From: Calditrichota bacterium | Lineage (GTDB): Bacteria > Electryoneota > AABM5-125-24 > Hatepunaeales > Hatepunaeaceae | DNA length: 35,165 bases | Direction: 5' to 3' | NCBI GenBank assembly: GCA_016867835.1 | Contig: VGIQ01000016.1 | Location: 1 to 35,165 of the forward strand | Part shown: positions 12,969 to 27,396 of the stretch, piece after piece | Layout of the letters: the number at the start of each line of letters is the position of its first letter | Position numbering within the stretch: position 1 is the first letter of the stretch | Program-made: the position numbers and the translations under genes | Notes under the pieces: model-generated | Told to the model about the DNA's origin: nothing | The model's input: only the letters and a program-made list of their open reading frames with translations | Database searches by the model: none

Positions 12969-13871
12969 CTATGATACTGCAGCCGTGGAAGTCAATGACC
13001 TGATAATCGCTACTTTCTCCCCCCGGGTCAATCTTATCCGACGGTCGTAGCGCCCCGTGGATTCGATCCGGCCCAAGAGCGCCTCGTAAATGGCGCCCAT
13101 GGCGCGAGCGGTGGTGAGCGGGCCGCGGATGTCGGGGGTAAGCGCCTCGCGAGCCTGTCGATAGAAACGTCGTGCAAAGGCAGCCTCTTCAGCTACCAAA
13201 CTATGCAGTGCAGCCCGATAGTCTAATTGAAGGAAGTTGGATGGAGTCAGTCCATGTCGTGCGAGCGTCTCTATGGGAATGTAAACGCGCCCCCGTGCCT
13301 GATCTTCACCGATGTCGCGCAGGATGTTGGTCAACTGCATTGCTTTGCCGAGATCGACCGCAAACCCGCGAGCGGCTTCTGTCACGACGCCAAAGATGTG
13401 CAGGCAGAGCAACCCCACCGTTGAAGCAACCCGGTAGCAGTATAACTCCTGTTCATGACGTGTCGGGAAAGGGCGGAAGTCGAGATCGCTTGCAAGGCCC
13501 TCGAGCAAATCGTCGAAGTGCTTGCGTTCAAAGGAGAAACGTCGGACGGCTACAGCCAGGGCAAGCGACGTATCGTCACAGTATTGACCGGTATAGACGG
13601 TGTCCAGCCGGTTACGGAGTTGGGAGATAAGTGCACTGTCCTGCACAGCCTCAGCGGAGCCATCGGCAAAGTCCGCTGCATCGTCGCCGGCCCGACAAAA
13701 GGCGTAGAGGGCTTCTATGCCGCGCCGCTGAACCGGGGGAAGGATGAGAAAAGCAAGATAGAAGTTGCCGGCGGCTCGACGGGCGATGCGGGAGCAGGTT
13801 CGCCAGGCCCGGTTCAGGTCGGATCGCGATGCTGCTTCCAACGGCAGGTATGGTGCCAAAGTTCCGTTCAT
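12969..13871 (-). CDS. hpnD: Presqualene diphosphate synthase HpnD
   Basis: This 300-residue protein belongs to the squalene/phytoene synthase family and condenses two farnesyl diphosphates. Both Asp-rich Mg-diphosphate sites are present: FCRAGDDAADF (about residues 57-67) and QLTNILRDIGEDQARGRVYIP (about 178-198). Family assignment to HpnD rather than phytoene synthase rests mainly on the neighbour: hpnC lies directly upstream and overlaps by ATGA (13868-13871). The HpnC/HpnD/HpnE trio makes squalene for hopanoids. HpnE, the FAD-dependent third enzyme, is not in the window. It appears to be the last gene of the long minus-strand operon. Phytoene synthase remains a weaker alternative. Confidence 0.82.
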   Translation of the reverse strand: MNGTLAPYLPLEAASRSDLNRAWRTCSRIARRAAGNFYLAFLILPPVQRRGIEALYAFCRAGDDAADFADGSAEAVQDSALISQLRNRLDTVYTGQYCDDTSLALAVAVRRFSFERKHFDDLLEGLASDLDFRPFPTRHEQELYCYRVASTVGLLCLHIFGVVTEAARGFAVDLGKAMQLTNILRDIGEDQARGRVYIPIETLARHGLTPSNFLQLDYRAALHSLVAEEAAFARRFYRQAREALTPDIRGPLTTARAMGAIYEALLGRIESTGRYDRRIRLTRGEKVAIIRSLTSTAAVS

Positions 13872-14755
13872 CTATTAAGAGCCGCGCGAATGAAAACTCT
13901 CAGTTTCGCCGGTCGGCCTACCCGGGCGCGATGATTGAGAACATCATAGTCGATGCTTTGAATAGCCCTTAGAGCAGCCATGCCGCCGCCCCAGTAGAGC
14001 CGCAACTGGCGTCCAAGTGGCCGGTTAACCAGATCGAGCAGGGCCTGGCCTTCTTCGAACATCGCCTCCGTTCGTTCAACGAGGTTGGCCATCATCTGCT
14101 TGAAGAGGGGGCCAGTCTCACGACGTTGGATCGCGTCTTCACTTACACCGAACCGGGCCATTTCAGACAGTGGAATGTAGATCCGGCCCCGCCTAAAGTC
14201 CCCCGCGACGTCCTGCCAGTGGTTAGCCAGTTGCAGTGCCGTGCAAATTTTGTCTGAGTATGCAAAAAACGGCTCATTAGATTCGCCGCCAAGCAGTAGA
14301 ACAAGCCGCCCGACCGGATTTGCCGAGAGGCGGCAGTAATCGAGAAGGTCTTCCCAGGATACGTATCGCAGACAGGTGAGGTCGCGACGAAACGCCTGTA
14401 AGAGGTCGCGAAACGGCTCCAGCGGCAGTTTATGCCGCCTTATCGTTTCGCCCAGTGCGGCAAAAAGCGGATCGTCTGAATTTCCTTCTGCCGCATGTTC
14501 AAGACGCAATTCCCACTCATCAAGCAGCGCTGAAGGACTTCCGTCGGCTGGCTCGTCGGCGATGTCGTCGGCCAGGCGGCTGAAGGCGTAGAGGTTGTAG
14601 ATATCCTTCCGGATTCGGCGGGGAAGGAAAAGTGATGCGACGCGAAAATTCTCGTAGTGATTTCGCGCCAGTTTCCTGCTCGCTTGATAGCCGACAGCCG
14701 CCTTTTGAATATCGCTACCAGCGGCTACCGAAGTTGCGAGCGCTGTCGGCTTCAG
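13868..14755 (-). CDS. hpnC: HpnC, squalene-pathway prenyl synthase (CTG start proposed)
   Basis: The frame begins well upstream of the first conventional start (TTG 14509). The peptide upstream of that TTG contains the diagnostic HpnC segment HYENFRVASLFLPRR and then IYNLYAFSRLADDIADE, the first Asp-rich site, so it must be translated. The second site is NHWQDVAGDFRRGRIYIP. No ATG or GTG exists between the in-frame stop at 14786-14788 and this segment. CTG 14753-14755 overlaps the stop of the preceding small gene as CTGA and has GGGGAG two bases upstream, so it is the preferred start (295 residues). ATT 14708-14710 is the alternative. In known systems HpnC hydrolyses or rearranges presqualene diphosphate on the way to squalene. 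It is coupled to hpnD by ATGA. Confidence 0.82.
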   Translation of the reverse strand: MKPTALATSVAAGSDIQKAAVGYQASRKLARNHYENFRVASLFLPRRIRKDIYNLYAFSRLADDIADEPADGSPSALLDEWELRLEHAAEGNSDDPLFAALGETIRRHKLPLEPFRDLLQAFRRDLTCLRYVSWEDLLDYCRLSANPVGRLVLLLGGESNEPFFAYSDKICTALQLANHWQDVAGDFRRGRIYIPLSEMARFGVSEDAIQRRETGPLFKQMMANLVERTEAMFEEGQALLDLVNRPLGRQLRLYWGGGMAALRAIQSIDYDVLNHRARVGRPAKLRVFIRAALNR

Positions 14756-15036: not shown

Positions 15037-16407
15037 CTAAAGTGCAGACTTGATCGACTTGAGCCGATCCTCGACTTCGGCTCTGATGGCAGTTAACTTA
15101 TCCGGCGAATCGGCTTCGAATCGAAGAACAAGCACCGGCTGGGTGTTTGAAGCGCGCAACAATCCCCAGCCGCCTTCGGTGATGAGCCTCATCCCATCGA
15201 CATCGACGATCTTGTACCGATCCCGAAACGAGTCGCGGACCTGCTCGACAACGGCGAATTTAAGGTCGTCGGGGCAGTCCACTCGGATTTCGGGGGTGTT
15301 GTAGGTCTGCGGCCAGTCATCGAGCAGCCGGCTGACCGGCCGATTCGAGCGAGCGACGATCTCCAGCAACCGCCCGGAAACATAGACCGCATCGTCGAAG
15401 CCATAGTAGCGATGTTTGAAGAAGATATGTCCTGACATTTCCCCTGCCAGTTCGGCGCCGGTGTCGTGCATCTTACTCTTGATAAGTGAGTGGCCGACCT
15501 TCCACATCAGCGGGTTGCCGCCATGCCGGGCAACGTCGTCGAAGAAGAGTTGTGAGCACTTCACTTCACCGATAACCGTCGCGCCAGGTCGCTCGAGCAG
15601 TAGATCGCGCGCCAGGACGGCGAGAATCTGATCTCCCCATAGCGGTCTCCCGGTTTCGTCGATGACCCCGATCCGGTCGGCGTCTCCATCGTAAGCGATG
15701 CCAAGTTCGTAGCGACCTTCCAGTACGACTTTTCTCAAGTCGGCAAGGTTCGTCTCAACGGTCGGATCCGGGTGATGATGCGGGAACCGGCCATCGACTT
15801 CGCTGTAGATGACATGAGCTTCGACTCCGAGCCGTTTAAGTAGTTCCGGCGCTGTAAGCCCCCCCACACCGCTGCCGCAATCTACCGCCACCCGAACCGG
15901 CCGGGCGACCTTTAGACGCGCGGCAAGATCGTCAAGGTACTCGGGAATAAGGTCATAGCGTTCAACGGTCCCGCTGCCTCGCTCGAACTCTCGCGACGCG
16001 ATAATATCGCGGACCTTGAGAATCTCAATCCCGTAAATTGCTTCGCGTCCAAGCGATATCTTGAAGCCGTTGTATTCCGGCGGGTTATGGCTGCCGGTGA
16101 TCATTATCGCACCGCCGGCTTCGAGGCGATGCGTCGAGTAATATGAGAGCGGCGTCGGGATCATACCCAGGTCAACGACCGCGAGCCCGGTCGAGAGCAA
16201 GCCGTCCGTCAGGTAGTCGCGGATATCGGGCGACGAGAGGCGCCCGTCACGCCCCAGCGATATTCGCCGGGCTCCTCCACGGATTAGATAGGTGCCGATG
16301 CCGCGTCCGAGATCGCGCACCACATCCGGCGTCAAGTCAACGCCGAAAACGCCGCGGATGTCGTATTCCCGGAAAATGTGAGGGTTGATAGTGCCTGGCT
16401 TAGTCAA
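15037..16407 (-). CDS. Phosphomannomutase/phosphoglucomutase
   Basis: The 456-residue enzyme interconverts hexose 1- and 6-phosphates. Four family sites are visible in order: the phosphoserine loop TGSHNPPEYNGFK (about 104-116), the metal site YDGDADR (about 240-246), the sugar-binding GEMSGHIFF (about 325-333), and the phosphate-binding RASNTQPVLVLRFEA near the C-terminus. The length matches bacterial AlgC/ManB-type bifunctional enzymes rather than GlmM. The start is TTG 16407 with AAAGGA seven bases upstream. It follows bshA in the same direction with a gap of 57 bases, so it may supply sugar phosphates for the bacillithiol glycosyl unit or for the envelope. The exact sugar cannot be read from the sequence. 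Confidence 0.9.
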   Translation of the reverse strand: MTKPGTINPHIFREYDIRGVFGVDLTPDVVRDLGRGIGTYLIRGGARRISLGRDGRLSSPDIRDYLTDGLLSTGLAVVDLGMIPTPLSYYSTHRLEAGGAIMITGSHNPPEYNGFKISLGREAIYGIEILKVRDIIASREFERGSGTVERYDLIPEYLDDLAARLKVARPVRVAVDCGSGVGGLTAPELLKRLGVEAHVIYSEVDGRFPHHHPDPTVETNLADLRKVVLEGRYELGIAYDGDADRIGVIDETGRPLWGDQILAVLARDLLLERPGATVIGEVKCSQLFFDDVARHGGNPLMWKVGHSLIKSKMHDTGAELAGEMSGHIFFKHRYYGFDDAVYVSGRLLEIVARSNRPVSRLLDDWPQTYNTPEIRVDCPDDLKFAVVEQVRDSFRDRYKIVDVDGMRLITEGGWGLLRASNTQPVLVLRFEADSPDKLTAIRAEVEDRLKSIKSAL

Positions 16408-16464: not shown

Positions 16465-17583
16465 TCAGATTCCCAGCACCTGGCGGTATAGCGCCTCATA
16501 TCGGTCGAGGATGGTGTCGCGATCAAACCGCTCGAATGCTGCGCGGCGGGCTTGATGTCCCATCCCCCGGCGACGCTCTTCATTGAACAGCAAATCTAAC
16601 GCCGCTTTACTCATCGCCTCGGTGTCACCAACTTCAGTGAGGACGCCGGTCAGGCCATCGTCGATCACTTCCGGAAGACCTCCGGCACGACAACCGATGA
16701 CCGGGACCCCACAAGCCATTGCCTCGAGTGCGGCGAGGCCGAAACTCTCGGCGTCGCTCGGCAAGAGCATCAGGTCGGTTGCTGCAACGACCCGTTCGAC
16801 CTGTGCGATGTTGCCCAGAAGGTGGAGATCGTCAACGGATCCAGACTCGCGTATGCGTTGTACGGCTGCAGGCAATTCAGGGCCGTTACCTATCAAAATC
16901 AACTTGACGGGTATTTGTTCCCGGACCTTCAGGAAGACCGTAACAACGTCTTCGATTCGCTTGACCGGTCGAAAGTTCGATACATGAACCAGGAGACGTT
17001 CACCGCCCGGAGCAAAGCGCCGGCGAACCGGATCCGGTGAAAGATGCTCATAGTCTCTCGGATCGACAAAGTTCGCTATGACGGCGATCTCTCTATCGCA
17101 GTCAAAAGTTCGACAGACTTCCATTCTTAAGAATTCCGACACCGCGGTTACGCCGTCCGAGTGCGCGATGGCATACTTGACCACCGGCATAAAAGCCGGG
17201 CTGCGACCGACCAACGTGATGTCGGTGCCGTGCAAAGTGTTGACCACCTTGAGGCGGCCTCCGGTGATCGCTTTGGCAAGCAGCGCTGACGCCGCGTGCG
17301 GGATCGCGTAGTGGGCATGGATCAATTGCAATCCTGACTCGCCTGCGACCTCGGCCATCATCGAGGCGAGTGCTTGAGAATGGGGAGGATATTCAAAGAG
17401 CGGGTAGTCCGGGATCGAAACCTGATGGTAGTGAATCCCCGGCTGAGTCAAATTAAGCCGACCCGGGACGGCATAGGTGATAAAGTGCACCTCGTGCCCC
17501 CGTTCAGCCAGCCCCATTCCCAATTCCGATGCAACAACGCCGCTGCCGCCAAAAGTCGGCCAGCACGATATGCCGATTCTCAT
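16465..17583 (-). CDS. bshA: BshA, N-acetyl-glucosaminyl L-malate synthase
   Basis: BshA is a GT4-type glycosyltransferase that joins GlcNAc from UDP-GlcNAc to L-malate, the first step of bacillithiol synthesis. The 372 residues start at ATG 17583 (MRIGISCWPTFGGSG), which overlaps the bshB1 stop as ATGA. The frame extends nine codons further to a GTG, but that is less likely. The N-terminal glycine loop (PTFGGSGVVASELG), LHGTDITLVG and the EX7E motif (ESFGLAALEAMACG) are present, as are VHVSNFRPVKR and LIGNGPE of the donor-binding domain. Its place directly after bshB1 and bshC makes the assignment firm. Confidence 0.93.
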   Translation of the reverse strand: MRIGISCWPTFGGSGVVASELGMGLAERGHEVHFITYAVPGRLNLTQPGIHYHQVSIPDYPLFEYPPHSQALASMMAEVAGESGLQLIHAHYAIPHAASALLAKAITGGRLKVVNTLHGTDITLVGRSPAFMPVVKYAIAHSDGVTAVSEFLRMEVCRTFDCDREIAVIANFVDPRDYEHLSPDPVRRRFAPGGERLLVHVSNFRPVKRIEDVVTVFLKVREQIPVKLILIGNGPELPAAVQRIRESGSVDDLHLLGNIAQVERVVAATDLMLLPSDAESFGLAALEAMACGVPVIGCRAGGLPEVIDDGLTGVLTEVGDTEAMSKAALDLLFNEERRRGMGHQARRAAFERFDRDTILDRYEALYRQVLGI

Positions 17584-18326
17584 CCGAGGTCGCCCTGCCG
17601 AAGCGTCCACTCGATTGGATTTTCTATGCGAATCGCTTCGCGCACATGGAACGCTTCACCGTAGCGGACACCAATCATATCACCATAATGGCGGGCTCGT
17701 GTCTCTACCCGGTCCATAAACTCGGGACGGCTGATGAAGGTGTCGGGGGCTTCCCCAGATGCGGTGAAGAACTGCGAACGATATGCGCAGACCGCCGCCA
17801 TCTTTTGCGCATGGTGCCGACTTACATCGACGATGAGCGAAACCGGGCCCTCGATATGCGCGAAGTAATGAAAGACCCGTCGCGGACGATGGGGTTCAAG
17901 CCCGGGCGAAAACTTGATCACACCAGCCCAAAAGACCGCCTCCCGCGTCAGCCTGCTAACGGCAGAATGGTCGGGATGCCGATCCGTTTCATAGTGGACA
18001 ATGAGCAGCGTCGGTCTGGTAGCGCGCAGTAATTGGACCAGATGTTCCAGATTACCGGCATCGGGATAAATGGCGCTCTCCCGTGCTCCGAGATTCCACC
18101 TTTCAGCCTTGAGGATCTCCGCTGCCAGTGCGGCTTCGGCGGCTCGCGTTGCAATATCCCCTCGAGTCGATAGAGCAGCATCGGTAATGTCGAGAATTCC
18201 GGTTCGATAGCCCTTTTCGGCGAGGAGTGCGAGAGTTCCGCCGCAACCCAATTCTACATCGTCAGCGTGGGCGCCTATAGCCAGAGCGTCGAGGCCCGGC
18301 AATGCGCTATAATCCAAGGTGCTCAA
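17580..18326 (-). CDS. bshB1: BshB1, bacillithiol pathway deacetylase
   Basis: BshB removes the acetyl group of GlcNAc-malate, a LmbE-type zinc-dependent step. Zinc-site motifs are GAHADDVELGCGG (near residue 18) and YETDRHPDHSAV (about 110-121). The family-typical TRGD (about 53-56) and the C-terminal IGVRYGEAFHVRE are also visible. AHADD, rather than the general AHPDD, is also what I recall from Bacillus BshB. The gene has no ATG: TTG 18326 is used here, while TTG 18302 would give the family-typical short N-terminus MPGLDALAIGAH. Neither has a clear Shine-Dalgarno site. The stop overlaps the ATG of bshA, and bshC lies 57 bases upstream. Confidence 0.9.
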   Translation of the reverse strand: MSTLDYSALPGLDALAIGAHADDVELGCGGTLALLAEKGYRTGILDITDAALSTRGDIATRAAEAALAAEILKAERWNLGARESAIYPDAGNLEHLVQLLRATRPTLLIVHYETDRHPDHSAVSRLTREAVFWAGVIKFSPGLEPHRPRRVFHYFAHIEGPVSLIVDVSRHHAQKMAAVCAYRSQFFTASGEAPDTFISRPEFMDRVETRARHYGDMIGVRYGEAFHVREAIRIENPIEWTLRQGDLG

Positions 18327-18383
18327 GTGTCAGATGCAATGAGTAGAGAAACGAAGATCGGCTGGCAGCAATAAAACTCGATA

Positions 18384-20009
18384 TTAGTCACCCAGTTCGA
18401 TGACGTAATGACGGGGTGCAAGCAGGTTGACCTTTTCAGAAAGCGCTGATATGAATTGATCTCCATAGTGGGCAATATAGTAGAGTGGGCTGTCATGCCG
18501 CTCCTGCAACACCTCATCGGGCAGGAGATGTTCGATGACAAAGTCGGCGTGACGCAAGCGGGTTAGATCCCGGGATTCGATGCGGGTAAGCGCCAGCGAT
18601 TTCAACTTCCCCCACTGGTAAGTCATCTTGCGCCCGGCCTGGTCGAGTTCGGTGGCAATAGCAACCTCTGCTTCCTCGGCGGCTTGTTCGATACGTTTTA
18701 GCCAGCCCTCAAGGTGCGCCATGCCACTATCGAAGAGCGAGGCAAGCGCCTCGCCGCTGCCACGCCGCCGCAACAGCATCTCACGCCCTCCCATTGCATC
18801 GGCGACGGTCCAGTTGTGTTTGTCGAGGTAGCGCCGCACCGGTCGCTCGACAAGCGTGAAACCAGATCGCGCCGCTACTAAGGGCCGCCCGATCTCCAAC
18901 AACTCATAAGCCAGACCAATCTGCGCCTGATATGAGATTTCGGCCGGGCCGCCTACATAGATCCATGTCGGAAGCAGGTAATCCTGCAGCAACGGTCTTA
19001 GCAATGCCGAAGGCGAAAACCGGTGCGGTTCTCGGGCCGCAAGTTTCTTCAGGTCGTCAGAGGTAATGGGCTCACCCTCGGGACCGGCGCGCCAAACACC
19101 CGATTCCCCCTGTAAACGACGCCGCACTCCGTCGTCGCCATGATGCATGACCGGCAGGGCGTCGTCGCGGAGATAGACCTGAAGCGGCAGGTGAAGCAAT
19201 GCCAGGGACCGCGACGAAGCGGCAAAGGATTGGTTCAGTTTCTCCGGACGAGCCAGTGCCTTTTGCCAAAAGGGGATGGAGCGTTCGATCAGTGCAGGGT
19301 GGCGCGGATCGACGAGCACAAGTCCTCGAGCCCCAAAGAGTTCGTTCATCATACGTCGAAAGGCGTCCGCAATGAACTCTCCCGGCTGGTAGGCTGACCG
19401 GATCAGTTCGACGACCCGGTCTCTGTGCGGAGCATTCTCTATCCAAACATCAACTTCGGCGATGGCAGCGTCGATCTCCGGCATCAAGCGGTGCAAACTG
19501 ATCGATCTACCGGCAACAACATCGCGCGGTGCGTAAAGCGCTCGACGGGGTGTTCCACTCAGCGGCGGAAAGGCGATGCGGTTGACCTCGCCGAAGTCGG
19601 AATCGGCAGTTTCCATCCAAAAAAGCGGCACGACCGGACCATCCGTCTCCTCTGACAGTTGCCGCGCCAACCGGATGGCTGAGAGTGCCTTATAGGTAGT
19701 ATATAGCGGTCCACCGAACAAGCCTGCCTGCTGCCCGGTAACGATGGCCAGCGTCCCGGGCTGGTCCAAGCGGACCAGGTTGGCTTCGATGGCGGGAGAC
19801 AAATCCATCCCGCCGTAGCCCTGACGAAGTGCTTCGCCCAGTCCGTCCGGAATTGAGTGCTTTAGACGCCGATCGCGTGCAATACGGCGTGCTGCTGCAC
19901 TGCGGTAGTCGCCGCCCAGAAGGTCTATCACACTATCATTCTGCGCGGCGAATTCCAGCATCACCTGGGGGACGTTGGGCAGGTTGGCCCAGTTCAATTG
20001 TTCAGACAC
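18384..20009 (-). CDS. bshC: BshC, putative cysteine ligase of bacillithiol synthesis
   Basis: BshC performs the last step, adding cysteine to glucosaminyl-malate. The 541 residues equal the family's usual length. Recognisable are the Rossmann loop VTGQQAGLFGGPLYTTYKALSA (about 90-110), VPLFWMETADSDFGEVNRIAF (about 127-147; the family usually has EDHDF), and YVGGPAEISYQAQIG in the second half. A helical stretch at about 410-455 fits the family's coiled coil. The start GTG 20009 overlaps the 3' end of the methyltransferase gene by eight bases (stop at 20002-20004). It is the first of the three bsh genes, suggesting a single transcript bshC-bshB1-bshA. Confidence 0.93.
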   Translation of the reverse strand: MSEQLNWANLPNVPQVMLEFAAQNDSVIDLLGGDYRSAAARRIARDRRLKHSIPDGLGEALRQGYGGMDLSPAIEANLVRLDQPGTLAIVTGQQAGLFGGPLYTTYKALSAIRLARQLSEETDGPVVPLFWMETADSDFGEVNRIAFPPLSGTPRRALYAPRDVVAGRSISLHRLMPEIDAAIAEVDVWIENAPHRDRVVELIRSAYQPGEFIADAFRRMMNELFGARGLVLVDPRHPALIERSIPFWQKALARPEKLNQSFAASSRSLALLHLPLQVYLRDDALPVMHHGDDGVRRRLQGESGVWRAGPEGEPITSDDLKKLAAREPHRFSPSALLRPLLQDYLLPTWIYVGGPAEISYQAQIGLAYELLEIGRPLVAARSGFTLVERPVRRYLDKHNWTVADAMGGREMLLRRRGSGEALASLFDSGMAHLEGWLKRIEQAAEEAEVAIATELDQAGRKMTYQWGKLKSLALTRIESRDLTRLRHADFVIEHLLPDEVLQERHDSPLYYIAHYGDQFISALSEKVNLLAPRHYVIELGD

Positions 20010-20877
20010 GTCTTCGGCCTATGTAGATCATTCGAGGCGATGCAGCGGAGAGTGGATTCCCATCGTAGTCGCCTCGAAGAGGGCCGTATGGTTCCCATCC
20101 CGCCTTTTGGGTTAGTTCGATAACTTCCAACTTGCTAAAAAGTCGTACTGACTCCATTGACCTGCGCACCTCGACTCCTGTTCCTCGAACCCCAACACTT
20201 GCCATTCGATCCGCGAGACGCATATCCTTTCGGGTTATCCGTATGCGCTTCTCAACCCGGAGTCCTTCATTTACTTCAATCAACCGGTAGTGCTCTTCGA
20301 TCTCGATGTCGGGTATTTGATCGTTCGCAAATTTGCCCGCTTCATCCCTTTCGCACTTGATCATTCTTTTACGCATCGGAGCATCGCGGACGCAGCGGCG
20401 AACGTCGTCGGGATTGGGTAGATCGAGGAGCAAGATACCATTTGGCTGGACGACAGCGGCAACGTCCCGCAAAACCTCCAAATGCTCCCGGTCGCTTGCG
20501 AAATAGCCGAAACTTGTAAACAGGCTAACCGCCAAACCAATTCGGGGTGGTGAGCCGAACGGCAACTGCCGCAAATCGCATCGCGCAAAATAGATGCTCT
20601 CAAACTGGCCGCAGTTCTGTTGCGCCTTACTCAGCATCGTGTCCGAGCGATCGAGGCCGATCACCCGATAGCCTTTGCCGGCAAGCGCGCGGAGGTATCT
20701 TCCTGCACCGCATCCAAGGTCCAGGCACCAACTGCCTTGCGGCAAGTCGTCAAAGAATGGCCAGGACAATACGAATCGGTCCGCTTCGGCTTGGTCGCGG
20801 TGGGCATAGACGAGGTCGTAATCATCTCCCGACCAGTCACGGAACCATTCTCTATGTGCAGTGGAACGAGTGATCAA
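20002..20877 (-). CDS. SAM-dependent methyltransferase linked to bsh genes
   Basis: The 291-residue protein is a class I methyltransferase. SAM-binding motif I is CLDLGCGAGRYLRAL (about 51-65), followed by GLDRSDTML (about 74-82), the acidic loop CDLRQLPF and the post-motif strand GILLLDLPNP. The N-terminal EWFRDWSGDDYDLVYAHRD matches the family that methylates small molecules rather than DNA or rRNA. It overlaps bshC by eight bases, so the two are probably coupled. N-methyl-bacillithiol is known from green sulfur bacteria, made by a SAM methyltransferase (NmbA). Equating this protein with NmbA is inference from position and fold. The start is TTG 20877, inside an octamer repeat, with no Shine-Dalgarno. 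Confidence 0.8.
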   Translation of the reverse strand: MITRSTAHREWFRDWSGDDYDLVYAHRDQAEADRFVLSWPFFDDLPQGSWCLDLGCGAGRYLRALAGKGYRVIGLDRSDTMLSKAQQNCGQFESIYFARCDLRQLPFGSPPRIGLAVSLFTSFGYFASDREHLEVLRDVAAVVQPNGILLLDLPNPDDVRRCVRDAPMRKRMIKCERDEAGKFANDQIPDIEIEEHYRLIEVNEGLRVEKRIRITRKDMRLADRMASVGVRGTGVEVRRSMESVRLFSKLEVIELTQKAGWEPYGPLRGDYDGNPLSAASPRMIYIGRRRV

Positions 20878-20916
20878 GTGAGCAAGTTCAAGTGATCAAG
20901 TGTTCAAGTGATCAAG
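20874..20916. repeat. Octamer repeat array TCAAGTG(A/T), left copy
   Basis: Four full copies of the octamer TCAAGTGA or TCAAGTGT lie at 20874-20881, 20888-20895, 20896-20903 and 20904-20911, with a partial copy at 20912-20916. A six-base variant (GCAAGT) lies between the first and second copies. The array spans the proposed TTG start of the methyltransferase. A related array in the opposite orientation lies at 21120-21160 by the response-regulator start; GTGAGCAAGTT (20878-20888) and AACTTGCTCAC (21120-21130) are exact inverted copies. Confidence 0.72.
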
Positions 20917-23911: not shown

Positions 23912-24011
23912 GAATACTGAATACTGAATGCGGAATTCGGAGTGTGGAATCTGGAGTGCCGTCACTCACTTCACTTGGAATGACTCCCACATTCTTAATT
24001 CTTAATTCTTC
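23912..24011. repeat. Heptamer repeat arrays in inverted orientation (GAATNNN and ATTCTTA)
   Basis: At 23912-23953 six heptamers follow each other: GAATACT, GAATACT, GAATGCG, GAATTCG, GAGTGTG and GAATCTG. At 23991-24011 three heptamers ATTCTTA, ATTCTTA and ATTCTTC run up to the stop codon of the tricorn-like gene. Since ATTC is the complement of GAAT, the two arrays have opposite orientations. They resemble the short tandemly repeated heptamer (STRR) elements known from cyanobacteria in layout, though not in sequence. Confidence 0.68.
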
Positions 24012-27000
24012 ACTTCCTATACCCCCGGTCTTTCGGGAATTCGGGCATATCGGGAACCGTCATCGGCTCCTTCTCGATCTTGTCGAGGAGATACTTTATG
24101 GTGTAGTCGAGTGACGGGTCTTTGCCCTGCATTGTCGAAGCCGGGTCATCGACGACCTCGATATCGGGATCGGTGCCCCAGCCTTCGATGAGCCATTTCC
24201 GGTCGCTGACGCCCCAGCCTGTGAACTCAGGTTGGGTTACCATTCCGCGATCTACCAACGGCTTGTCGCCCCGGATGCCGACCCAACCGCCCCAGGTGCG
24301 GGTTCCGATTACCGGTCCTAACTTCAGACGCTTGAAGCCTTCGGTGAAGGTTTCGCCGTCGGATCCGGTCTCGCCGTTTGAAACGGCGGCCAAATGACCG
24401 TAGAAGGCGGTCGATGGGCTGCGATAACGGAGACCGTGCCGGGCCATCCCGGCGCTGACGAGGTTGCGGTCCAGGTGCGCCAGGATCATTTCGGCAACAA
24501 ATCCGCCTCCATTGTAGCGGACGTCCATGATGAGCGCCTGTTTGGTGTGTTGCGGCTGATATCCGGCGGTGAACTGCGATAGACCTGCTCCGCCCATATT
24601 GGTCAGATGGATGTAGCCGATCTTCCCGCCCGACTTCTCCTCCACATAGCGTTTGCGTCCGTCAACCCAGTCATTGTAGCGGAGCGCGGCTTCACTCGCG
24701 AGCGGCTTGACAACAACATTGCGCGCTGCATCGAGGGAGGGTGTGCTGTTCAGCGATATTTGGGTGATGCGGTCGGCAGTGCCAAGCAGGAGTTCGAAGT
24801 AATCAGGCACGGAATTGGTCGAGCGGCCGTTGATGGCAACGATGTACTCTCCGGCTTTGGCGTCGATGCCGGGCGCGGCAAGCGGGCTGGTTGCGTTAGG
24901 CTCCCACGGACGTCCGGTGATCACCTGGTCGATCCGGATAAAGCCTGTGGCGTCCCGCGAGGCATCGATCCCCAGCAAGCCGGACGGGCGATGTTTGGCG
25001 CCTTTGACATCTCCGCCCCAGACATAGGTGTGCGAACAGTTCAACTCGGCGAAGAGTTCCCCAATCAGATCGTTCAACTCACCGCGGGTCGAAATGCGTG
25101 CGGCAAGCGGGCGGTACTTGGCGCGGATCGCCTTCCAGTCCACTCCGTGCATATTGGGATCCCAGAAGAAGTCGCGCTGCAAGCGCCAGGCTTCGTCGAA
25201 TATCTGCTGCCATTCAGCGCGGACATCGAGGCGCATTTCCCAGCCGCCTAATTCGACCTTTTTCGAATCCTCCTTGTCGCCTCGGCCACCTCGACCGCCT
25301 CCTCCGCCATCGCTACCCTCTTCATCGACACCCATCAAGGTGAATTCGCCCTTTTGGCGATAGACCAGTTTCTTGCCACCTATGGCGAGATCGTAACTGT
25401 CGATTCCTTCGACCGCAACCTTGTCCTTCTTCTTCTTCAAGTCGAAGCGGTGCAGGTCGTATCGCCCGAGTCGATCGTCATCGAAAAGGCCGCTGCCGAG
25501 CATCCCTTGCCGCTCCCATGCCAGGTAGAAGACCTTCTCCTCTGTGGCCTCCAAGGCGCCATAGTTGCCTGCAGGTATCGGGAAGACTGCGACGCGCGAG
25601 GCGAGGCCGTCGAAGTCGATCTCGACCTTGACCGAGTCTTTCTTGTCTTTATCCTTCTCCTTGTCCTTGCCCTTTCCCTTTCCAGAGTCTTTACTTTCCT
25701 TTCGACCACCCCAGCCTTCGTCGTCGTCGCTCCGCGGATCGACTTCCGGCGCAAAGGGCGACGGCGTCCCCTTCTTCAAGCAGTAGGCATAGATCTTCGT
25801 CCGGCGGTCGAGGATGTAGGTCATTTCCATTCCGTCGAGTACCGGGTTGGCTTCACGGTCCGAGAGGAGGAAGAGGTACTTGCCATCCGTTGACCAGGCC
25901 GGCGAATGGCTGCTGACGAAGTCGTCGGTGACGGGCGTAGATTTACCGGTTACAGAGTCCCAGATCTGGATGATGGAGTTGTAGTTTCTCTCCGCGCGGG
26001 CATAGGCTACGAACCGGCTATCGGGCGACCAGCGATACTGGGAAATCTCCCAAGTGCTCTTGTCGATGACCGAGGTCTTGCCGTCGGGGATGGACATCAC
26101 GATCAATTCACACTCTTCGTTGCCAAAGAGGACCTTTTTGCCATCGGGCGACCAAACCGGCGGGAAATGCCAGCCCCGGCTGTCGGTGCCGAGCACTTTA
26201 GAGGTTCCTCCTTCGGCGGGGTAGAGGTGGAGCACTTCCTCACCGGAGGCGTCGGTCCACGCAGCGATCGACTTGCCGTCGGGAGACCAGCGGGGGTACT
26301 TCTCGCGCGACCCGGCGCTATAGGTCAACTGCCGGATGAGGCCTTCGCCCTTGGCCGGGGCGGTGACGATCTCGCCGCGCGCCGATAGAATGATCCTCTT
26401 CGCGTCGGGTCCGAGGTCGTAGTCGGTGATGAAGTCGCCCGGCTGGAAATACTTGACGCGAGCCTGCAAGCGGTCGGTCGGCAAGGCTATCGGTATAGCT
26501 CGATCCTCGTTCTTTGCGAGGTCATAGAGACGCAGGTCCATCCCTAATTGATAGACGATCCGGTCGCCGCCCATCGAAGGGAACCGGGCGTCGAACTCCT
26601 TGTGAAAGGTGTGCTGCTTCGGTGCGTTGCCATCGGGATTCATCGAATGGATGTTAGCCCGGCCGTCGCGGTTGGAGAGGAAGTAGATCCGGCCGCCCTT
26701 ATGCCACATCGGGAAGCCGTAGTCGCCCTTCCAGTCCTTGAATGCTGCACCCTTGCCGGTAACGTCGGTGAACTCGGGCACGCCCAGATCGCCGACCCAA
26801 ATGGTCATTGCCATGCCGCCTTGATAGCGCTTCCAGCGGTGATTTTCAAGAGTGAGGGGGTTGAAGGCGATGCGCTTGCCGCCCGGTTCGAAGGTGACTA
26901 GCGCAGCCTTGTCAAGCCCGATCGAAGCCGCTATCCCGCCCTCGGGAGCGACGCGATAAACGCGAAAGCCGCGATAGGGAATCTCGCGCGTCGAACGAAA

Positions 27001-27396
27001 GAGGATGTTGCCGGACAGATCCCAGCCGATGGATTGATCGGTATGGGGGTGATAGGTGAGCCGTCGCGGTTCGCCGCCGCTGGAGGGAATCAGAAAGACG
27101 TCGTCCTGACCATCTTCCTGGCCGGTGAAAGCAACCCATTTGCCGTCGGGGGAGAACTTCGCATACTTCTCTTCGCCTTCGTGGGTCGTGAGCCGTAAGG
27201 CGGTTCCACCGGTTACGGGGACCTTCCAGAGATCGCCTTCCGAGGTGAAGACGACCCAGTCTCCCGAGATTGCCGGAAAACGGAAAAACCCGGGCTGATC
27301 GGGTTCCGTGGCGGCGTTTGCGTTACCTGGAAGATGCCCTGTCGATGCTATGATGAGCAAGACAAGGCTGACGATGTGTCCGAGCGATCGCAACAT
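24010..27396 (-). CDS. Tricorn-type serine protease, secreted
   Basis: The 1128-residue protein is close to the family length (tricorn of Thermoplasma is 1071). A signal peptide (about 1-28) is followed by PD40/TolB-like propeller blades to about residue 540 (KFSPDGKWVAFTG, RWSPDGKSIAAWT, WSPDGKKVLFGNE). Two low-complexity insertions come next, one very Lys/Asp-rich (about 570-595) and one Gly-rich (about 700-715). A PDZ domain lies at about 810-900 and an S41 core follows. The catalytic tetrad is present: Ser788-His789 (ELNCSHTYVWGGD), nucleophile Ser1012 (ETGSDGETF) and Glu1071 (LIEGWGTDPD). Tricorn proteases finish peptide breakdown; this one should work outside the cytoplasm. GGAG precedes ATG 27396. 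Confidence 0.9.
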   Translation of the reverse strand: MLRSLGHIVSLVLLIIASTGHLPGNANAATEPDQPGFFRFPAISGDWVVFTSEGDLWKVPVTGGTALRLTTHEGEEKYAKFSPDGKWVAFTGQEDGQDDVFLIPSSGGEPRRLTYHPHTDQSIGWDLSGNILFRSTREIPYRGFRVYRVAPEGGIAASIGLDKAALVTFEPGGKRIAFNPLTLENHRWKRYQGGMAMTIWVGDLGVPEFTDVTGKGAAFKDWKGDYGFPMWHKGGRIYFLSNRDGRANIHSMNPDGNAPKQHTFHKEFDARFPSMGGDRIVYQLGMDLRLYDLAKNEDRAIPIALPTDRLQARVKYFQPGDFITDYDLGPDAKRIILSARGEIVTAPAKGEGLIRQLTYSAGSREKYPRWSPDGKSIAAWTDASGEEVLHLYPAEGGTSKVLGTDSRGWHFPPVWSPDGKKVLFGNEECELIVMSIPDGKTSVIDKSTWEISQYRWSPDSRFVAYARAERNYNSIIQIWDSVTGKSTPVTDDFVSSHSPAWSTDGKYLFLLSDREANPVLDGMEMTYILDRRTKIYAYCLKKGTPSPFAPEVDPRSDDDEGWGGRKESKDSGKGKGKDKEKDKDKKDSVKVEIDFDGLASRVAVFPIPAGNYGALEATEEKVFYLAWERQGMLGSGLFDDDRLGRYDLHRFDLKKKKDKVAVEGIDSYDLAIGGKKLVYRQKGEFTLMGVDEEGSDGGGGGRGGRGDKEDSKKVELGGWEMRLDVRAEWQQIFDEAWRLQRDFFWDPNMHGVDWKAIRAKYRPLAARISTRGELNDLIGELFAELNCSHTYVWGGDVKGAKHRPSGLLGIDASRDATGFIRIDQVITGRPWEPNATSPLAAPGIDAKAGEYIVAINGRSTNSVPDYFELLLGTADRITQISLNSTPSLDAARNVVVKPLASEAALRYNDWVDGRKRYVEEKSGGKIGYIHLTNMGGAGLSQFTAGYQPQHTKQALIMDVRYNGGGFVAEMILAHLDRNLVSAGMARHGLRYRSPSTAFYGHLAAVSNGETGSDGETFTEGFKRLKLGPVIGTRTWGGWVGIRGDKPLVDRGMVTQPEFTGWGVSDRKWLIEGWGTDPDIEVVDDPASTMQGKDPSLDYTIKYLLDKIEKEPMTVPDMPEFPKDRGYRK

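Follow-up and report, generated by a model that had tools for sequence, protein, structure and literature searches.

A probable N-methyl-bacillithiol operon and a conserved nmbA-bshC gene order in the Electryoneota

Gene organisation of the locus

The window, that is the whole stretch of 35,165 nucleotides analysed here, belongs to a draft genome of 2.9 Mb, of which it makes up contig C16; its minus strand carries a run of four genes (Table 1). As proposed in the initial annotation, all four open reading frames lie between positions 16465 and 20877, with a SAM-dependent methyltransferase gene (nmbA) at the head, followed by bshC, bshB1 and bshA. Inspection of the sequence also bears out the proposed overlap between the methyltransferase gene and bshC, which is exactly 8 bases long (GTGTCTGA). 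bshC and bshB1 are separated by 57 bases. The mechanically called bshA reading frame starts at 17610, and the TIGR03999 match starts at residue 10 of this longer frame; because the family match begins there, the ATG at 17583 is probably the true start, so that bshA and the stop codon of bshB1 would share the four bases ATGA. A phosphoglucomutase-type gene located 57 bases 3' of bshA is possibly co-transcribed with the operon, and no specific role in the thiol pathway is claimed for it. Upstream of nmbA, a response regulator and a histidine kinase (the latter judged by eye) form a pair that is oriented in the opposite direction.

Table 1. Features of the candidate N-methyl-bacillithiol locus in the window
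Feature	Position	Strand	Product and start	Evidence
nmbA, SAM-dependent bacillithiol N-methyltransferase (predicted)	20002..20877	-	291 aa, TTG start	phmmer, profile, tree, family positions
bshC, cysteine-adding enzyme of bacillithiol synthesis	18384..20009	-	541 aa, GTG start	TIGR03998, PF10079, PF24850
bshB1, GlcNAc-malate deacetylase	17580..18326	-	248 aa, TTG start (inferred)	TIGR04001
bshA, N-acetyl-glucosaminyl-L-malate synthase	16465..17583	-	likely ATG start at 17583	TIGR03999
phosphoglucomutase/phosphomannomutase gene	15037..16407	-		PgmG-like NF046027 533.7 bits, below cut-off 600
8-base tandem repeat, TGATCACT-like, 6.2 copies, holds nmbA TTG start	20869..20916	.		Tandem Repeats Finder, sequence

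The start of nmbA is uncertain because the TTG codon sits inside the tandem repeat. It is the only common in-frame start codon 5' of the conserved methyltransferase domain, and the frame closes six codons further upstream. Elsewhere in the genome, four further contigs hold stretches resembling TGATCACT, and the reversed control pattern gave none.

The three bacillithiol enzymes are assigned with ample scores. Each passed the equivalog cut-off of its NCBI family: BshC with 366.8 bits against 265.8 (TIGR03998), BshB1 with 242.8 bits against 182.5 (TIGR04001) and BshA with 492 bits against 273.7 (TIGR03999). The bshC product also matches PF10079 and PF24850. The genes bshA, bshB1 and bshC, whose co-occurrence serves as a criterion for NmbA, all lie directly downstream of nmbA.

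Identity of the methyltransferase

NmbA was identified by gene deletion in Chlorobaculum tepidum (PMC6282198), and its biochemistry and structure were described in 2025; both the C. tepidum enzyme (CtNmbA) and that of Paenibacillus polymyxa were shown to methylate bacillithiol (PMC12719100). Orthologs have been predicted in 1765 species, including members of the Gemmatimonadota, Balneolota and Rhodothermota, and the occurrence of NmbA beyond the green sulfur bacteria is therefore not new (PMC12719100).

The 291-residue protein encoded in the window is a class I SAM enzyme (Methyltransf_25, 2.9e-15). In a phmmer search against solved structures the best match is CtNmbA (CT1040, PDB 9RI2) with 2.2e-27, which is separated by 16 orders of magnitude from the next solved methyltransferase (2.4e-11). 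An NmbA-family profile was derived from 22 related sequences, of which 19 are encoded next to bshC; it matches CtNmbA with 256.8 bits over almost its full length and the next structure with 104. The window enzyme and CtNmbA have in common the N-terminal signature W....F/S...Y...Y.HR, the SAM motifs, of which residues D53, C56-G57, G59 and D76 align between the two, and an aromatic pair. This pair, Y125-F126 in the window enzyme, corresponds in the alignment to the tyrosine and phenylalanine of CtNmbA (Y134 and F135) that have been assigned to the SAM site (PMC12719100). In total 33 of the 36 positions conserved among 102 NmbA-type proteins are kept, including W11, Y20, Y24, H26, R27, Y125, F126, G269 and the invariant K210, E242 and R282.

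Pairwise identity between the window enzyme and CtNmbA is 34% over 239 aligned residues, and it is also 34% between the window enzyme and a Paenibacillus ottowii protein; CtNmbA and the P. ottowii protein are 36% identical. The P. ottowii protein is taken here to be a close stand-in for the characterised P. polymyxa NmbA. In the NmbA tree the window enzyme groups with proteins of its own family in a clade of six members (SH-aLRT 100) inside the NmbA-type set. The deep branches of this tree are weakly supported and paralogs from the same genome sit on very long branches; the position of the outgroup is unstable and for this reason monophyly of NmbA is not claimed from it.

Comparison of folds was rejected as a discriminator. 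The AlphaFold model of the window enzyme has a mean pLDDT of 87, and in a Foldseek search 9ri2 ranks third, with many natural-product methyltransferases matching about equally. A comparison with the four-strand cap topology of CtNmbA is subject to the report that AlphaFold mispredicts and misplaces the NmbA cap (PMC12719100). The family assignment therefore rests on sequence. Generic NCBIfam methyltransferase names such as DVU1556, CpaM and daptide were rejected as well, all of them being far below their cut-offs.

Taken together, the profile, the tree and the conserved adjacency described below strongly support the methyltransferase as an ortholog of NmbA. The profile comparison groups the protein with NmbA and not with an unrelated family.

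The three departures from the family consensus are F16 to S, L77 to R and the replacement of the cap arginine (R189 in CtNmbA) by Y197. The sister protein from locus L059 also has a tyrosine at the cap-arginine position, in an alignment in which L059 stood as its duplicate L013. Compared with CtNmbA, the window enzyme thus differs in these three conserved residues and in the presence of extra residues that the alignment places in the cap region, and its branch is among the two longest of its own clade. Relatives of the same family that do not have the cap insert possess the same operon.

Conservation of the nmbA-bshC gene order

A survey of 39 genomes of the phylum detected NmbA-grade proteins in 24 of them, with scores of 278-331 bits, all others scoring at most 184. 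In 22 of these 24 genomes, the one containing the window included, nmbA immediately precedes bshC, the two genes share a strand, and their ends usually overlap, overlaps of 4 or 8 bases being common. Its recurrence in so many genomes, with the orientation retained and an overlap in most cases, shows that the adjacency is not a matter of chance. The two exceptions are G037, where nmbA and bshC are on separate contigs with ample flank around nmbA, and G031, where the contig ends soon after nmbA and adjacency cannot be judged. The linkage of the methyltransferase gene to bshC seen in the window is thus conserved among its relatives.

Beyond the phylum survey, bshC lies directly downstream of nmbA in 19 of 80 loci, which belong to Gemmatimonadota, Calditrichota, Zixibacteria, one Acidobacteriota genome, kin of the window and some other bacteria. 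The P. polymyxa NmbA is of the same family as the window enzyme, whereas the Bacillota nmbA loci recovered here have no detectable bshC in their flanks (up to 5 kb on each side). The full order nmbA-bshC-bshB-bshA is found in loci L059, L060, L061, L094, L104 and L149, and hence is shared by relatives within the window's own family, by a second family of the phylum, by one Acidobacteriota genome (L104) and by one genome of another phylum (L149). The overlapping nmbA-bshC pair is kept across several phyla and bshA and bshB are often located elsewhere.

A close counterpart is Candidatus Hatepunaea meridiana (L061), which NCBI taxonomy places in Candidatus Electryoneota within the FCB group. By genome kinship it belongs to the same family as the window; it has the same four-gene order and the same 8-base nmbA-bshC overlap, and differs from the window in sequence divergence only, with about 41% identity in NmbA. 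In C. tepidum, by contrast, the locus numbers are scattered (CT1040, CT1419 and CT1558; PMC6282198), whereas the window genes are packed into a single cluster with overlaps. The words "operon", "gene cluster" and "synteny" are absent from the main text of the 2025 study (PMC12719100), and a search of the open-licence literature by title and abstract found no published mention of the nmbA-bshC arrangement, so that this gene order may have gone unremarked.

Several variants of the arrangement were encountered. Two genomes of a different family within the phylum carry a divergent NmbA-like gene that overlaps bshC or lies next to it (L147:4416-6525 in G009; L148:914-1636 in G014). The BshC encoded there is very divergent and falls below the family cut-off, and bshA and bshB1 are located elsewhere and have normal scores; the two neighbouring genes may have diverged in concert, toward a modified thiol. 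In the draft genome G002 (L145:513-4523) bshC is present and no NmbA-grade protein, BshA or BshB1 was detected, an absence that is uncertain in a draft. The next gene after bshC here is a phosphoglucomutase gene resembling that of the window, and the reading frame 5' of bshC resembles a membrane methyltransferase (both judged by eye). A 674-residue protein encoded on contig C25 of the window's own genome (L151:2365-4389, minus strand) combines an NmbA-like methyltransferase domain with an ATP-grasp domain of the D-Ala-D-Ala-ligase type, and eight further genomes of the phylum have similarly long frames of about 650-690 aa that contain this methyltransferase domain.

Inheritance of the gene pair

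Distances in the NmbA and BshC trees are correlated (Mantel r 0.60, 0 of 5000 permutations), a correlation that cannot be read as coupling beyond shared descent because related taxa share their history anyway. The same lineage clades appear in both trees and the window has an identical sister in each, in agreement with vertical inheritance of the two genes together. It had been suggested that the whole pathway moves as one unit, a notion that the trees do not bear out as they demonstrate no transfer event. The central part of the same suggestion, in which the methyltransferase is taken as NmbA and the cluster as the source of N-methyl-bacillithiol, has strong support from the profile, the tree and the conservation of the gene pair. 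The Acidobacteriota locus L104 was considered as a case of horizontal transfer of the entire operon; its NmbA groups with proteins of Planctomycetota and Bacillota and its BshC forms a long branch, and these observations allow no conclusion.

Bacillithiol redox partners

The genome that contains the window encodes one bacilliredoxin-family protein (PF06491, 172 bits), with the motif VCGC (CGC) in L152. Among 14 control genomes PF06491 was found only in that of B. subtilis. No bacillithiol disulfide reductase of the YpdA type scored over the cut-off in the window's own genome, and the best candidate was rejected for this role on account of its score (134.6 bits against 339.9) and its fusion to ferredoxin domains. 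This protein is encoded on contig C22 (L153:2340-3704) as a fusion of a pyridine nucleotide oxidoreductase with ferredoxin, and adjoins a multihaem cytochrome-like protein (by eye).

Proposed pathway and alternatives

The favoured reading, to which we assign a probability of roughly 0.88, is that the four genes form one N-methyl-bacillithiol operon whose first product is an NmbA ortholog, the thiol being used via bacilliredoxin. The window thus most likely encodes the synthesis of N-methyl-bacillithiol. It is proposed that BshA would join GlcNAc to L-malate, BshB1 would remove the acetyl group and BshC would add cysteine to give bacillithiol, the cysteine amine of which would then be methylated by the NmbA ortholog with SAM. 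The resulting N-methyl-bacillithiol, a small molecule with a protective role, would serve as a redox buffer and be used through the bacilliredoxin encoded elsewhere in the genome. The sequences directly show the genes with their family membership, overlaps and conserved order, and the presence of a bacilliredoxin; we infer co-transcription, translational coupling, the catalytic activity of the enzyme in this organism and the formation of the thiol.

An NmbA homolog with a drifted cap might instead act on a variant substrate, be it another thiol, an intermediate of the pathway or bacillithiol at another atom. The three changed conserved residues, the extra cap residues and the long branch of the window enzyme all point in this direction, as does the report that the substrate site of NmbA is formed by the cap (PMC12719100). 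However, the remaining family positions are kept, among them the aromatic pair near SAM and the three invariant residues, the methyltransferase is still coupled to a normal BshC, and the same operon is carried by relatives without the insert, which makes such a change of substrate unlikely. It is very unlikely that the methyltransferase is poorly expressed or not expressed at all owing to a start altered by the repeat, leaving the cell with mostly plain bacillithiol. The sole upstream start codon within the repeat and the early closure of the frame would agree with this scenario, but the reading frame is intact across the conserved domain, the key residues are preserved and bshB1 also has an inferred TTG start. 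That an unrelated small-molecule methyltransferase adjoins bshC by accident is barely credible and largely refuted by the profile scores, the tree and the adjacency within the phylum: its NCBIfam matches are weak and spread over many methyltransferase families and its fold is a common one among natural-product enzymes, yet no other solved methyltransferase comes near NmbA in the sequence comparison, the position next to bshC is retained in different families and phyla, and the silence of NCBIfam says little since its matches include no NmbA model even for so close a match.

Under the favoured N-methyl-bacillithiol reading, the enzymes are already known, and what is added here is one more member with good support, together with a gene order that is conserved, and not a new system. 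The predicted pathway, characterised only recently, is extended on strong evidence to an uncultured family in the Electryoneota line. In this phylum the gene that precedes bshC and overlaps it is usually nmbA, an arrangement that is also frequent in Gemmatimonadota and Calditrichota. The nmbA-bshC order offers a simple way to predict N-methyl-bacillithiol from genomes, and it gives reason to ask whether BshC and NmbA act together. A rather doubtful proposal is that the two proteins constitute a working unit, through shared translation and perhaps a hand-over complex, so that the pool would be methylated as it is made; the altered cap may then tune the hand-over in this lineage.

Other features of the window

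The frame of an HpnC-type squalene synthase (13868-14700, minus strand) stays open 5' of the TTG listed as its start, and this extension supplies the N-terminal part of the domain that is otherwise missing. No ATG, GTG or TTG lies ahead of that part, pointing to an unusual start or a sequence error. A Tricorn-type protease of 1128 aa, comprising PD40 repeats and Tricorn C1, PDZ and S41 domains, is encoded at 24010-27396 (minus strand).
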